Position numbers and translations under genes: made by a program. This document shows positions 17,629 to 32,401 of a stretch of DNA of 32,402 nt, one piece after another. The stretch covers positions 249,482-281,883 of the forward strand of contig NZ_MQWB01000001.1 in NCBI RefSeq assembly GCF_002257665.1, in the 5' to 3' direction. Position 1 is the stretch's first letter, and each line of letters opens with the position of its first letter. This DNA is from Rubricoccus marinus (lineage in GTDB: Bacteria; Bacteroidota; Rhodothermia; Rhodothermales; Rubricoccaceae). A model generated the notes under the pieces. That model was given only the letters and a program-made list of their open reading frames with translations. It was not told where the DNA came from and searched no databases.

Positions 17629-17655
17629 GGTGGGGGGCTGCGGTGATGCGAGGCA

Positions 17656-17900
17656 ACCCCCTGAAAAACGCGCCTGCAACGGCGGTTTTTCTGTCCCCCT
17701 CAAGAGAGGGACAGGTGACACCGAGCGGTGGGCAGAACGTTTTGGCACAGCGACTCTTACGATTCAGATCTGAACTGTCCCCGCTTTGAGGGGGACAGAG
17801 AACGCGACGCCGTGCCGCCCACTCAACGCGCCGGCCCCCACCCCTCCCTTGAGGGTGGAGACGGAGCACCGCCCCGAGCGTTCTCAGGGGGTTCTACCCC
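17656..17900. repeat. Inverted pair of bipartite double-hairpin elements
   Basis: The 383-bp gap between the two photolyase genes is mostly this element. The reverse-oriented half (17656-17714) has ACCCCC, then a hairpin GAAAAAC-g-CGCC/GGCG-GTTTTTC (17663-17691) and a palindrome CTGTCCC...GGGACAG (17691-17714). The forward half starts with CTGTCCCC...GGGGACAG at 17775-17798. A degenerate continuation with CACCC...GGGTG (17840-17858) and a CGCC-containing hairpin ends in AGGGGGT near 17891. About 60 bp separate the halves. The same parts recur at 20730-20788 and 31921-32089 with different but self-complementary arms. Confidence 0.7.
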
Positions 17901-19504: not shown

Positions 19505-19535
19505 GAACCGGTTTGGACCGCCTGCCAACCCCGAG

Positions 19536-19625
19536 GGTGTCATCGCGAGCGAAGCGCGGCGATCTCACGACGCCGAGCGCAGACCCAGCAGATCGCCACG
19601 TCGCTGCGCTCCTCGCGATGACACC
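19536..19625. repeat. 90-bp imperfect inverted repeat (GGTGTCATCGCGAGCG family)
   Basis: Left end GGTGTCATCGCGAGCGAAGC with GCGGCGATCT, right end AGATCGCC with GCGCTCCTCGCGATGACACC. The two ends are complementary over ~30 bp with a few mismatches. Repeats of the type 'GTCATCGCGAGCGAAGC...' are scattered in many bacterial genomes. Only one copy is in this window. Confidence 0.7.
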
Positions 19626-19641
19626 GGATTGGAGCGTCGTC

Positions 19642-20676: not shown

Positions 20677-20729
20677 GCCTCTGGCGGGGCGCCGCGCCCT
20701 CTCGGTCTGCGCGTCGCCCTCGATCGAAA

Positions 20730-20788
20730 CTGTCCCTCTCTTCGAGGGGGACCGTTCAACCGCCGTTCAGGCGAGTTGAACAGGGGGT
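20730..20788 (+). repeat. Bipartite double-hairpin element, forward half
   Basis: Palindrome CTGTCCCTC...GAGGGGGAC (20730-20752), then hairpin GTTCAAC-CGCC, loop GTTCA, GGCG-a-GTTGAAC (20754-20781) and the tail AGGGGGT (20782-20788). The arms differ from those at 17663 and 32052 yet remain complementary. Confidence 0.75.
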
Positions 20789-20846
20789 GGGTGCGCCTAG
20801 CCGCAGACCCGCCTGAGGCTCTTGGCGCCAGAGGCAAAAAGCATTT

Positions 20847-20964: not shown

Positions 20965-22647
20965 ATGCCCCTCGATCCCCTCGCCGGACAGCCCGTCCCC
21001 GCCGACCGCCTGCCGGACATCCCGGCGCTCGTCGACGCCTACACCTCTCGCACGCCCGACCCCGAGAATCCGGCCGAGCGGGTGACGTTCGGCACGAGCG
21101 GGCACCGCGGGTCGTCGCTGGATGGGCGGTTCAACGAGGCGCACATCCTGGCGACGAGCCAGGCGCTGGCGGAGTACCGCCGCGAGGCCGGAATCGACGG
21201 GCCGCTGTACATCGGTATCGACACGCACGCGCTCTCGCGGCCCGCGTTCGAGACGGCGATGGAGGTGTTCGCGGCCAACGGCGTGACGGTCGTGATTCAG
21301 GAGGGCGACGGGTTCACGCCCACGCCTGCGGTCTCACACGCCATCCTCGCGCACAACGGGGCCTCTGGCGGAACAGCCTCTGGCGCCAGAGGCGCGGGGT
21401 CAGGACCGGCTGACGGAGTGGTCATCACGCCGAGCCACAACCCGCCCCAGGACGGCGGCTTCAAGTACAACCCGCCGACGGGCGGACCGGCGGGCGGCGA
21501 CATCACGGGCCCGGTGCAGAACCGCGCGAACGAACTCCTGCGCGGCGGGCTACGCGAAGTGAAACGCGTGCCTCTGGCGAAGGCTCTCGGAGCCGACACC
21601 ACGCACACCGCCGACTTCGTGCGGCCCTACGTGGACGGCCTCGCGGACGTGCTGGACATGGACGCGATCCGCGCGAGTGGCCTCAAGATCGGCGTGGACC
21701 CGATGGGCGGCGCGGCGGTGGCCTACTGGGCGCCCATCGCGGAGACGTACGGGCTGAACATCGAGGTGGTCAACGAGGTCGTAGACCCGGCCTTCGGATT
21801 TATGCGGCTGGACCGCGACGGCAAGATCCGGATGGACTGCTCGTCGCCCTACGCGATGGCCGGCCTCGTGGAACTGCGCGACCGCTTCGACATCGCGTTC
21901 GGCAACGACCCGGATGCGGACCGCCACGGCATCGTCGCGCCATCCTCGGGCCTGATGAACCCGAACCACTACCTCGCGGTCGCCATCGAGTACCTGTTCA
22001 CGCACCGACCGGGCTGGTCCGAGGCCGCAGCGGTGGGCAAGACGCTCGTCTCGTCCAGCATGATCGACCGCGTCGTCGCGAGCCTGGGGCGGCCTCTGGC
22101 GGAGGTGCCGGTCGGCTTCAAGTGGTTCGTGGACGGGTTGCTCTCGGGCAGCTACGGCTTCGGCGGGGAGGAGAGCGCGGGCGCCTCGTTCCTGCGCAAA
22201 GACGGCACGGTCTGGACGACCGACAAGGACGGCCTGCTCCTCGGGCTTCTCGGTGCCGAGATCACCGCCGTCACGGGCCGCGATCCGGGCGAGCGCTACG
22301 CCTCGCTCGAAGAACGCTTCGGCTCCCCCGTCTACGCCCGCATCGACGCGCCCGCCTCGCGCGAGCAGAAGGCGGTTCTCGCGGACCTCTCGCCAGAGGC
22401 CGTCGACGCTGAAACGCTCGCGGGCGACGCGGTCACGGCGAAGCTCACGCGCGCGCCGGGCAACAGCGCGCCCATCGGCGGCCTCAAGGTCACGACCGCG
22501 AACGGGTGGTTCGCCGCGCGCCCGTCCGGGACGGAGGACGTGTACAAGATCTACGCGGAGAGCTTCCGCGGGGCCGACCACCTCGCGCGGCTCCAGGCGG
22601 AGGCGCAAGAGGTGGTGCAGGGCGCGTTCGCGAAGGCGGGGGTGTAG
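20965..22647 (+). CDS. pgm: Alpha-D-phosphoglucomutase
   Basis: This 560-residue cytosolic enzyme interconverts glucose-1-phosphate and glucose-6-phosphate. It aligns along its whole length with my recollection of E. coli Pgm (546 residues): [19 protein letters not shown] near 38, catalytic loop TPSHNPP with phospho-Ser157, Mg-binding DPDADRHG, sugar-binding [12 protein letters not shown] and phosphate-binding [12 protein letters not shown] near the C-terminus. Compared with E. coli there is one clear extra piece of about 11 residues just before the catalytic loop (residues ~133-147, bases 21361-21405). It reads Gly/Ala/Ser/Arg-rich and is encoded by three copies of the 9-bp repeat. Catalytic Ser is 157 here versus 146 in E. 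coli, which matches the insertion size. ATG 20965 gives the expected N-terminus ([11 protein letters not shown]). Confidence 0.96.
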
Positions 22648-22678: not shown

Positions 22679-22706
22679 GCGCCAGAGGCGGCCTCCGACG
22701 TTCCCC

Positions 22707-22896
22707 GTAGGGGCGTATCGCATACGCCCTCCAGGATGCCACGGCCTCTGGCGACACCGCCCATGCGTTCGGCCCTGACGCCAGAGGCTTGGTACGGGAT
22801 ACGTTCCCGAGTGCCGCGGCCTCTGGCGGCTCGGTGTCGCACCAGAGGCCCCTGGACGGGGCGCCGGGGTGGGGGGCGTATGCGATACGCCCCTAC
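22707..22896 (+). repeat. Left ~190-bp inverted repeat with REP ends, flanking the RAYT
   Basis: Both ends are REP palindromes: GGGCGTATCGCATACGCCC (22710-22728) and its reverse form at 22874-22892. Between them lie landmarks CAGGATGCC, four copies of the 9-bp word, GGCTCGGTGTCGC and GGGGCGCCGGGGTGGGG. The same landmarks occur in the same order on the other strand at 23442-23633. It ends 3 bp before the RAYT stop codon. Confidence 0.85.
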
Positions 22897-22898
22897 GG

Positions 22899-23423
22899 TT
22901 ACATGCGGTGTCCGTCGCGGCGCGTGGCGTCGAGGCCGTGCCACCGCGAAGGGTTCTCGGCGATGTACTGGCGGACGTGGTCGGCCTCGCGCTCCGTGCG
23001 GACGACGCGGTCGAAGAACCCCCGTTGCCAGACCGGCCCGACCTCGCGGCCTTCGCGATCCCAGACGGCGCGCGTGACGGCGCCCTTGTAGCCTCGCACG
23101 ATCGACGCCGCATTCGCCGACGGCGACCGGAATCTCCGCTCGGACCCTTGCTCGCCAGAGGCCTCTGGCGGGAGGAGGGCGAACAACAGGTGGACGTGGT
23201 CAGGCATCACCACGAAGGCGTCCAGGATGCACGTCGGCCGAACGTCCTCGGTGCGGATCCATTCCGCGTGCGCGATGTCGCCGAGTGGTGAGCGGAGCAT
23301 TTCACCCTCCTCCACATCCCCGAACAGCCTCTGGCGCCGGTGCGTGCAGATCGTGATGAAGTAGAGGCCGTCTGCATAATCGTGCGTTCGAAGGCGGACA
23401 GATCGGCGGTCTCGAAACGGCAT
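22899..23423 (-). CDS. REP-associated tyrosine transposase (RAYT, Y1_Tnp)
   Basis: This 174-residue protein belongs to the Y1/HUH transposases. The N-terminus RRSVRLRTHDYADGLYFITICTHRRQRLFG is the RAYT signature (shown in part). The HUH motif is MPDHVHLLF with His76 and His78. The catalytic tyrosine is Tyr153 in DHVRQYIAENPSRW, after WQRGFFDRVVR. Such enzymes nick and rejoin single-stranded DNA at REP sequences and are thought to spread or maintain them. Here REP palindromes flank the gene within 3 bp (stop side) and 19 bp (start side). A Pro-Pro-Glu-Ala-Ser-Gly stretch (85-90) comes from the 9-bp repeat, so that repeat has also entered this gene. ATG 23423 is chosen because it begins just before the conserved RRS. 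All catalytic residues are intact, so it could be active. Confidence 0.92.
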   Translation of the reverse strand: MPFRDRRSVRLRTHDYADGLYFITICTHRRQRLFGDVEEGEMLRSPLGDIAHAEWIRTEDVRPTCILDAFVVMPDHVHLLFALLPPEASGEQGSERRFRSPSANAASIVRGYKGAVTRAVWDREGREVGPVWQRGFFDRVVRTEREADHVRQYIAENPSRWHGLDATRRDGHRM

Positions 23424-23441
23424 GCCGTAGGGTACAAACCC

Positions 23442-23633
23442 GTAGGGGCGTATCGCATACGCCCCCCACCTCGGCGCCCCGCCCAGGGGCCTCTGGCGCA
23501 ACACCGAGCCGCCAGAGGCCGCGCATGCGGAAACGCATTACATACGGGCCTCTGGCGCTGGACCGGACGGCGCGGTTGGAGTCGCCAGAGGCTGCGGCAT
23601 CCTGAGGGAGGGGCGTATGCGATACGCCCCTAC
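23442..23633 (-). repeat. Right ~190-bp inverted repeat with REP ends
   Basis: Inverted copy of 22707-22896. The REP palindromes are at 23445-23463 and 23611-23629, with CAGGATGCC, GGCTCGGTGTTGC and GGGGCGCCGAGGTGGGG landmarks on the minus strand. The ends are nearly identical; the middle has diverged. This and the following 105 bp account for the 315-bp gene-free stretch before the M28 peptidase. Confidence 0.85.
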
Positions 23634-23678
23634 GGTTACATGTGTCCGTCGCGGAGTGTGGCGTCGAGATGGTGCAAC
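23634..23678 (-). pseudogene. Remnant of a RAYT 3' end
   Basis: Right after the right-hand REP the sequence GGTTACATG-TGTCCGTCGCGG...TGGCGTCGAG repeats the last ~43 bp of the RAYT gene with a 3-bp deletion and a few substitutions. On the minus strand it reads HHLDATLRDGHM-stop, against WHGLDATRRDGHRM-stop in the intact gene. It marks a second, lost RAYT copy or an incomplete transposition product. Confidence 0.7.
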
Positions 23679-30282: not shown

Positions 30283-30416
30283 CAGGAGAGGGGGTGGTGG
30301 GACCAGCGACGCCGATGCGAGCGCTTGTAGCGCCGCCGGGTGGCGGTCGCGCGGATGGCGGAGCGGCGCCTCTGGCGCAAGAAGCGAGTGAGCGAGGAGA
30401 ACGGGAGGACGATCAT
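30282..30416 (-). CDS. Possible 44-residue basic protein between ligase and DHH gene
   Basis: ATG 30414-30416 overlaps the ligase TGA as ATGA, and the ORF stop overlaps the DHH start as TGATG. The ORF therefore fills the gap exactly with two coupling overlaps. The product is strongly basic (RFLRQRRRSAIRATATRRRYKRS, shown in part) after a hydrophobic start MIVLPFSSLT, and it includes a 9-bp repeat copy reading Leu-Arg-Gln-Arg. It has no family that I know. The overlaps could be chance in such GC-rich DNA, or could be a re-initiation bridge rather than a functional peptide. Confidence 0.35.
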   Translation of the reverse strand: MIVLPFSSLTRFLRQRRRSAIRATATRRRYKRSHRRRWSHHPLS

Positions 30417-32401
30417 GGGCTCTCGCCAGAGGCGTGTTGGGAGGTGTAGATGGCGCGGACGGTCTCGACGGTGTCGACCTCGGAGGCGGGCTTGTCCGGC
30501 CGGAGGCGCACGATGCGCGGGAAGCGGAGCGCGAAGCCGCTTTTGTGACGCTTGGACTCCTGGACGGCGTCGAACGTGACCTCGATCACGATCTCGGGCT
30601 CGACGACGCGCACGCGGCCGTGGGCGAACTGCTGCCGCGTGTGCGCCTTGAACCACTCGGTCAGCTCTTCCAATTCGGCGTCTTTGAGCCCGCTGTACGC
30701 CTTGCCGACGTTGACGAGTTCGGGGTCGCTTTCGGACCGGCGCACGGCAAACGTGAAGTCGCTCAGGTACTTCCGCCGCCCCCCGCTGCCGACCTCGACG
30801 CTGGTCACGACGACATCCAACGTGGCGAGGGCGCGCTTGATCTTGAGCCACTCGCGCCCGCGGCGCCCGGGGCGGTAGGTGGAGTCCAGCCGCTTCACCA
30901 TGAGCCCCTCGTTGCCTCTGGCGCGGGCGTCCTCGAACGCGGCGTCGAGCGCGGCCACGTCGTCCATGACCGTCACGCGCGAGGCGTGGAGCGGCGCCGC
31001 CAGAGGCAGGGCGTCCAGGCGCCTCTGGCGCTCCGAAAGCGGCTCGTCGAGGTGGAGGTCGCCGTCGGCGTAGAGCACGTCGTAGGCGACAAAGGCGACG
31101 GGAAACTCGTCGAGGACGGCCTGGGGGGGCTTTTTGCGGCCGAGCCGTTTCTGGAGGCTCGCGAACGGCGCCACGCGCAGGGCGTCCTCGCCGGGCCAGA
31201 CGGGAACGATCTCGCCGTCGAGCACCAGTCCGCGCGGGCTCGCTGCCGCCAACGCCGCCAGAGGCTCTACCAGGTCGGGGAACTGCCCGGTGTTCTCGTC
31301 CAACGTGCGCGAGAAGAGGGCGACGCGCGTCGGCCCGGCGGGGCCTTCGACGATCTGGCCGTGCAGCGTCTCGCCATCGGGGTCGCCAGAGGCCTCTGGC
31401 GTGCGCGCAGCCTCGGGCGCCAGAGGCGCGATGTGTGCCTGGGCGCGGATGCCGTCGTACTTGTCCTCCACGGCGAACGTCTCGGGCATGAGCCGCGCGA
31501 CCTCGGGCGCCGGGTCTTCGCCGGGAGCGGACTCGGCGGGCGTGGCGAGCATAAACGTGATGGGGTGGAACAGCGCGAACGTGGCCTCGCCCAGCCGGTC
31601 CTGCCGCGCGAGGACGGCGGTTTCGCCCAGGTCGCCCGTCAGCATGTGCGCGCGGCGGACGGCGCCGGCCTCGCGCTCGAACGTCCGCGCAAGCGCGGCC
31701 TCCACGCCGCCCTGGAGCAGCCCGATCCGCGTCTCGCCCGCGAGCAGCTTGACGAGAAAGCGGGCCTCTGGCGGGGAGAGCGTGCCGAGCATCGCGCCGG
31801 TTTTCTCGGTCCGCGCTTTCGACCCGCGCGTGGCGGCGAGGTCGGCGAAAAAGGAGGCCGCATCCGCGAGGCTGAAGCCGCTGGCGCCAGAGGCTCCGGG
31901 CGCCGAGGCGTCCTGAGCGTACCCCCCGCGTTGCTCCCCTTCGGTCGCAACGCTGTCCCCCTTGACAAGGGGGACGGTCACATCTCGCTCGTCTGCACTC
32001 GCGGAGTCGCCAGAGGCTGAATCTGAACTGTCCCCCTCGGGGAGGGGGACAGATCCAACCGCCGTTTCAGGCGCGTTGGATCGGGGGGTAGGCCCGTCGC
32101 CAGAGCTCATCGCCCCGCCAGAGGCCAGCGCGTCGTGCGCGAGGTCGCCGGGGTCGCCTAGCTGGACGAGCCTCTGGCGGAGCGCGTCGGGCTCGGCGCC
32201 AGAGGCGGCGGCGATGGCGTTCAGGAGGGCGCTGTGGCCGACGCCCACGGTCCGCTGGTCCGCGAGGGGAAACACGCGGCCGGCGGCCCACCGCGCGGCG
32301 CGGCGGAGGTCGGCGTCGCCTAGCTCGCGCAAGAGGCCGCCGAGCAGGTCGGCTTTGGCGTTGCGGCCGCTCTCGTCCGCGATGGCGGCGAGCGTGTCGG
32401 C
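30413..32401 (-). CDS. ATP-dependent DNA ligase (5' partial)
   Basis: The frame is open to the right edge (residues ADTLAAIADESGRNAKADLLGG precede the visible TTG at 32332, given in part), so the N-terminus is missing. The enzyme seals nicks in DNA with ATP. The N-terminal helical domain has LAGxVFP-like AAGRVFPLADQRTVGVG. The catalytic motif I is EDKYDGIR (Lys codon 31460-31462). Later motifs are LDGEIVPVW, FPVAFVAYDVLY, EGLMVKRLDSTYRPGRRGREWLKIKR (in pieces) and a C-terminal OB domain. Two repeat-built inserts are visible. One is a ~100-residue low-complexity stretch in the N-terminal domain, which carries a complete bipartite hairpin pair (31921-32089). The other is a ~22-residue stretch just after motif I (31370-31437). 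Neither breaks the frame. The stop is coupled to the 44-residue ORF by ATGA. Confidence 0.92.
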   Translation of the reverse strand, partial: ADTLAAIADESGRNAKADLLGGLLRELGDADLRRAARWAAGRVFPLADQRTVGVGHSALLNAIAAASGAEPDALRQRLVQLGDPGDLAHDALASGGAMSSGDGPTPRSNAPETAVGSVPLPEGDSSDSASGDSASADERDVTVPLVKGDSVATEGEQRGGYAQDASAPGASGASGFSLADAASFFADLAATRGSKARTEKTGAMLGTLSPPEARFLVKLLAGETRIGLLQGGVEAALARTFEREAGAVRRAHMLTGDLGETAVLARQDRLGEATFALFHPITFMLATPAESAPGEDPAPEVARLMPETFAVEDKYDGIRAQAHIAPLAPEAARTPEASGDPDGETLHGQIVEGPAGPTRVALFSRTLDENTGQFPDLVEPLAALAAASPRGLVLDGEIVPVWPGEDALRVAPFASLQKRLGRKKPPQAVLDEFPVAFVAYDVLYADGDLHLDEPLSERQRRLDALPLAAPLHASRVTVMDDVAALDAAFEDARARGNEGLMVKRLDSTYRPGRRGREWLKIKRALATLDVVVTSVEVGSGGRRKYLSDFTFAVRRSESDPELVNVGKAYSGLKDAELEELTEWFKAHTRQQFAHGRVRVVEPEIVIEVTFDAVQESKRHKSGFALRFPRIVRLRPDKPASEVDTVETVRAIYTSQHASGESP
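31921..32089. repeat. Inverted pair of bipartite double-hairpin elements inside the ligase gene
   Basis: The reverse half has ACCCCCC, hairpin GCGTTGC (31928-31934) / GCAACGC (31947-31953) and palindrome arms GTCCCCCTTG / CAAGGGGGAC (31955-31975). The forward half has CTGTCCCCCTC / GAGGGGGACAG (32028-32052), hairpin GATCCAAC-CGCC / GGCG-c-GTTGGATC (32052-32082) and GGGGGGT. The 52-bp spacer contains a 9-bp repeat and TCTGAA just before the forward half, as at 17768-17774. Confidence 0.8.

Follow-up and report, generated by a model that had tools for sequence, protein, structure and literature searches.

Rickettsia palindromic elements (RPEs) are palindromes of ~150 bp, divided into several families, that lie in frame inside genes; as summarized in later accounts of the original reports, nearly half of the RPEs first described were located in genes (PMC3733652, PMC10969869 citing Ogata et al. 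2000, 2002). GTAG/CGTC-tagged REPs, which consist of a tetranucleotide at the foot of a 20–40 bp stem-loop and are associated with RAYT, also occur within genes, with an excess of inserts in DNA-repair genes, including a DNA ligase of Opitutus terrae (PMC3733652). REPINs, as described by Bertels and Rainey 2011 (PMC3116915), comprise inverted halves around a copy-variable spacer and are associated with single-strand folding.

The window analyzed here is a stretch of 32,402 nucleotides (bases 249482–281883 of contig 1) from the 4.43 Mb Rubricoccus marinus genome, and it carries a palindromic element within an ATP-dependent DNA ligase gene. The parallel with RPEs drawn in the initial annotation is borne out by in-frame insertion into the ligase and, in relatives, into an oxidoreductase (L122/L173) and a beta-propeller protein (L138). 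Relative to the RPEs as summarized in the accounts above, the element belongs to another host group and about 1 in 14 of its copies is in a gene, versus nearly half; an Rfam search gave no match of any kind, in keeping with the different sequence that had been proposed. Like GTAG/CGTC REPs, the family consists of dispersed palindromes, mostly intergenic and some in genes, with compensatory stem changes; in contrast to them, the element is larger, with three hairpins inside a C6/G6 stem, its ends are TACCCCCC/GGGGGGTA, no GTAG or CGTC tag was seen at a hairpin foot, and no RAYT gene lies near it. The inverted halves around a copy-variable spacer and the single-strand folding recall REPINs, a comparison made by description only, and each half matches the model of the other half, weakly; however, the short form of the element has one shared centre, a common central hairpin, and no RAYT association was found. 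Literature searches returned no description of the element, which does not itself show that none exists; the repeat family appears undescribed, and in-frame palindromic inserts as a phenomenon are already known.

The insert in the ligase gene

The ligase gene and the parts of its insert are as follows.

30413..32401, minus strand: ATP-dependent DNA ligase; the window holds 662 codons and lacks the 5' end
31877..32122, minus strand: ligase residues 94–175, between ALA and FSL, replacing 7 congener residues (net +75 aa; alignments with five relatives)
31920..32090, plus strand, antisense to the ligase: complete long-form palindromic element, TACCCCCC...GGGGGGTA (sequence, other copies, folds)
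31920..31976, plus strand: left half, with C run, hairpin 1 (GCGTTGC..GCAACGC) and first central hairpin (model R1, 80.1 bits; pair counts)
31977..32028, plus strand: variable spacer between the central hairpins, with one CGCCAGAGGC (sequence; spacers differ in other copies)
32029..32090, plus strand: right half, with second central hairpin, hairpin 2 (ATCCAAC..GTTGGAT) and G run (model R2, 72.5 bits; pair counts)

The element, first reported as 169 bp at 31921–32089, proved real, and its limits lie one base further out on each side, from 31920 (TACCCCCCG) to 32090 (CGGGGGGTA), which gives 171 nt or 57 codons. The order hairpin 1 to hairpin 2 reads on the plus strand, and the terminal inverted repeats, TACCCCCC/GGGGGGTA, are of the kind that defines MITEs. 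The ligase copy has TA at either end; against the relatives' empty site, which has diverged, no target duplication could be delimited.

The initial annotation was also correct that the insert is free of stops and frameshifts: the ligase frame is open across the whole element, and the product matches all three Pfam ligase domains (DNA_ligase_A_N, DNA_ligase_A_M and DNA_ligase_A_C). Motif I (EDKYDGIR) and the remaining catalytic motifs that were checked are present, and the readable part of the gene has no signs of a pseudogene; the start codon lies beyond the window end, in a masked stretch. A rough dN/dS of 0.24 against the congener G001 suggests purifying selection on the gene. A ligase match was found in 10 of 40 relatives, and judged across these genomes the gene is accessory in the group.

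For the empty site, the ligase was aligned with those of the congener, of three genomes from another genus of the same family (G004, G007, G008) and of one from another family (G029). The inserted segment is missing from all five, which represent three genera, the same genus included; the spacing from LGDPGD to the FFADLA-type landmark is 101 residues here versus 26–28 in the relatives. The net insertion amounts to 75 aa (225 nt) relative to the congener and 73–74 aa relative to the others, which exceeds the 171-nt element, since the flanking sequence that carries CGCCAGAGGC-type motifs is new as well.

The insertion site falls within the DNA-binding domain; the stretches on either side of it can be aligned to archaeal ligases. 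In the AlphaFold2 model, residues 96–174 lie between helices 84–95 and 178–190 and have no secondary structure and a pLDDT below 50, a low confidence that is partly expected, as the underlying alignment had six rows and no homologue of the insert. The insert, whose peptide includes VPLPEGDSSDSASG, is thus predicted to be a disordered loop segment. The proposal of a new protein segment holds as far as an in-frame addition with predicted disorder is concerned, and a functional role is not supported; the insert can be explained with no benefit to the ligase.

A dispersed family and its fold

DNA, pattern and covariance-model searches put the copy number of the genome at about 14, with three copies in the window; the two besides the ligase copy are listed below.

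20700..20789, plus strand: another copy, intergenic (R2 72.8 bits at 20731–20789; no gene over it)
17655..17899, minus strand: intergenic copy whose far end is enlarged (R2 76.7 bits at 17655–17713; sequence; no gene over it)

The ligase copy is 96% identical over 57 nt to the intergenic copy C1:1171565. A typical long copy opens with a C run and hairpin 1; two central hairpins follow, the first being TGTCCCCC..GGGGGACA, with a variable spacer between them, and hairpin 2 and a G run close the copy. The short form, with one central hairpin, is present twice in the same genome and in five other genera of the order (G003, G005, G007, G017, G029); at C1:3090106 the central hairpin alone was seen. 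The congener has no match to the family. A pattern scan of genome contigs with the left half gave three matches in distant organisms, none of them a recognisable full element, in a collection that may not include the records of this genome itself.

Covariation reached 0.233 in the left half (shuffled mean 0.119) and 0.397 in the right half (shuffled mean 0.182), values never attained in 500 shuffles, and 94.7% and 94.9% of the respective cells are paired; the structures used for these counts were drawn from the same sequences, which favours them somewhat. The arms of outer hairpin 2 differ wholesale between copies with complementarity kept, and the ligase copy has a compensatory stem change of its own. 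The RNA fold of the ligase copy (-107 kcal/mol, z = -8.7) and its DNA fold (z = -6.4) are each more stable than any shuffle; together with the further copies, these folds uphold the description of a complete dispersed palindromic element.

The unit was originally described as a bipartite inverted pair, a reading that is probably wrong. The RNA folds into one cloverleaf with a central arm pairing the two halves, whereas the minimum-energy DNA fold keeps the closing stem and outer hairpins and leaves two separate central hairpins. Among 40 short copies, a strict cloverleaf is the minimum-energy fold in 22, compared with 24% when the arms are shuffled. Because the short form has a single central hairpin and the long form can fold in the same way, the more fitting reading of the pair is a single cloverleaf: a C6/G6 stem closes it, two hairpins form the outer arms and the central arm is split. 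These data support the model but do not prove it. A tRNA-like cloverleaf was rejected, as ARAGORN found no tRNA at five loci.

A link of the element to Y1/RAYT transposases was likewise rejected: no element lies within ~1.5 kb of the Y1/RAYT genes examined, and a search with model R1 of nine such loci from the family genomes gave no copy. The window does contain a RAYT-like transposase at 22705–23640 (NF047646, 76.4 bits; cut-off 80), flanked by GTAGGGGCGTATCGCATACGCC inverted repeats of the GTAG REP type, which are a different repeat from the element. An GTCATCGCGAGCGAAGCGCGGCGATCTC-type repeat at 19535–19640 resembles CGTC REPs; a further one (L009), next to masked bases, sits immediately upstream of the ligase, a little beyond the window end. 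The motif CAGGATGCC(GC) is found ~5–10 nt outside the G-run end of many element copies (e.g. L005, L008, L027) and also beside the RAYT-linked repeats (window 22730 and 23600). In L057 (~1460–1620, G003:C180), an EngB-like reading frame follows immediately on the GGGGGTTG end of a copy, and this end may supply the frame's TTG start codon.

Origin and persistence of in-gene copies

The element, its other copies, the empty sites and the intact frame are directly established. Most probably, the ligase insert arose when a small, dispersed, non-autonomous palindromic element was copied, flanks included, into an interhelix loop of the DNA-binding domain, where it survives. The element would be copied by an enzyme as folded single-stranded DNA (C6/G6 stem, two outer hairpins and central arm), as proposed for REPs and REPINs. 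Survival in the ligase would then be owed to a total insertion that is a multiple of three in a frame without a stop, and to a hydrophilic Ser/Gly/Asp/Ala-rich chain that would stay disordered outside the fold; in-gene copies would be rare survivors, with mostly the intergenic ones persisting.

To separate coding from intergenic copies, a codon-usage score trained on the window genes was used. By this score, the genome has one clear in-gene copy, that in the ligase (1 of ~14), and nearly all others are intergenic; one at C1:2044506, beside masked bases, was left unassigned. In the related genomes G029 and G017, 2 of 32 screened copies lie in convincing genes, both in frame. One of these genes (L138) encodes the beta-propeller protein; the other (L122) encodes a FAD/FeS oxidoreductase with the copy between its Fer4 and CCG domains, where matches in most relatives break. 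In its G017 orthologue (L173, 79% identical), the same position holds a decayed copy that has stayed in frame; as the site is common to two genera, in-gene inserts, although rare, can by this comparison be kept over long times. L127 was rejected as an in-gene copy, with no Pfam match in that frame, and open frames over copies in L054, L057, L060, L067 and L082, judged from translations alone, were left uncounted.

Across 13 copies, 33 of 78 frames are free of stops; an open frame is therefore a common property of such a GC-rich palindrome and no sign of selection. Coding copies have VPL..GDS or a similar peptide in common, in too few cases to be read as a frame preference. The search for the element in other genes, suggested at the outset, thus yielded two in-frame cases in relatives and no readable preference, and of the earlier view that the element "tolerates or selects" coding insertion, tolerance stands and selection does not (1 of ~14 here, ~2 of 32 in the two related genomes).

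Selection on the insert itself, as a disordered arm or a very stable mRNA fold that tunes ligase level or activity, is accordingly weighed as unlikely: the ligase is kept intact, the fold is strong (-107 kcal/mol), the oxidoreductase insertion is kept in two genera and an excess of REPs in repair genes is published (PMC3733652), but in-gene copies are rare, open frames are common in the repeat and the insert is not conserved within the genus.

The flanks of the element bear on a second alternative. CGCCAGAGGC occurs 139 times in the window versus 2.8 expected under a third-order Markov model; its density is 13.2 per kb in intergenic DNA and 3.3 per kb inside genes. The 18-nt palindrome GCCTCTGGCGCCAGAGGC has 873 exact copies in the genome, none in the congener and 4 in one other of nine family genomes; on sequence evidence, CGCCAGAGGC/GCCTCTGGCGCCAGAGGC is a species-specific HIP1-like motif. 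Small in-frame insertions of it were observed in conserved genes, at 31376–31426, where the ligase has 17 more residues than its relatives, and at 21340–21410, where a phosphoglucomutase has a 10-residue insertion relative to PDB 9v68. Element ends lie at most 55 nt from CGCCAGAGGC in 23 of 26 cases (0.48 for random intergenic points of the window) and 18–30 nt from it in 14 of 26 (0.11). The null for these figures was drawn from a single window in which gene limits were judged by eye, and the distance bands were picked after the data were seen. In the ligase copy, the motif is 25 nt away on either side. The motif could belong to the mobile unit, mark its target or have been added later.

The alternative that the segment grew in situ, through accretion of motifs and template switching driven by hairpins and with no mobile copy, draws on this genome-wide iteration of CGCCAGAGGC around the element, on outer arms that vary as matching pairs and on the smaller motif-rich insertions in the ligase and the phosphoglucomutase; it is about as improbable as selection, since the ligase copy matches intergenic copies over the whole architecture, up to the 96% identity with C1:1171565. 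An ancestral segment lost in relatives is very unlikely: few relatives have the ligase and the sample is small, yet the segment is absent from five ligases in three genera, another family included, and its sequence is that of a dispersed repeat. An assembly artefact or pseudogene, conceivable given that strong hairpins can mislead assembly and that the masked 5' end is unreadable, is just as remote, with at least 662 open codons, the catalytic motifs that were checked, a rough dN/dS of ~0.24 and the copy's own compensatory stem change, unexpected for a misjoined copy.

Beyond insertion into the ligase, we tentatively consider, at less than even probability, a broader reading in which the repeats form an undescribed cloverleaf family with a conserved C6/G6 stem and TGTCCCCC/GGGGGACA centre and with outer arms rewritten as matching pairs, moved by a putative single-strand enzyme and occasionally leaving a lasting, vertically inherited disordered protein segment.

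The ligase case echoes the published excess of inserts in DNA-repair genes, a ligase included (PMC3733652), and adds a further repeat family, apparently unrelated and from outside Rickettsia, to the cases in which palindromic DNA has become protein. As relatives have the site empty and one insertion is common to two genera, the fate of such inserts can be followed.
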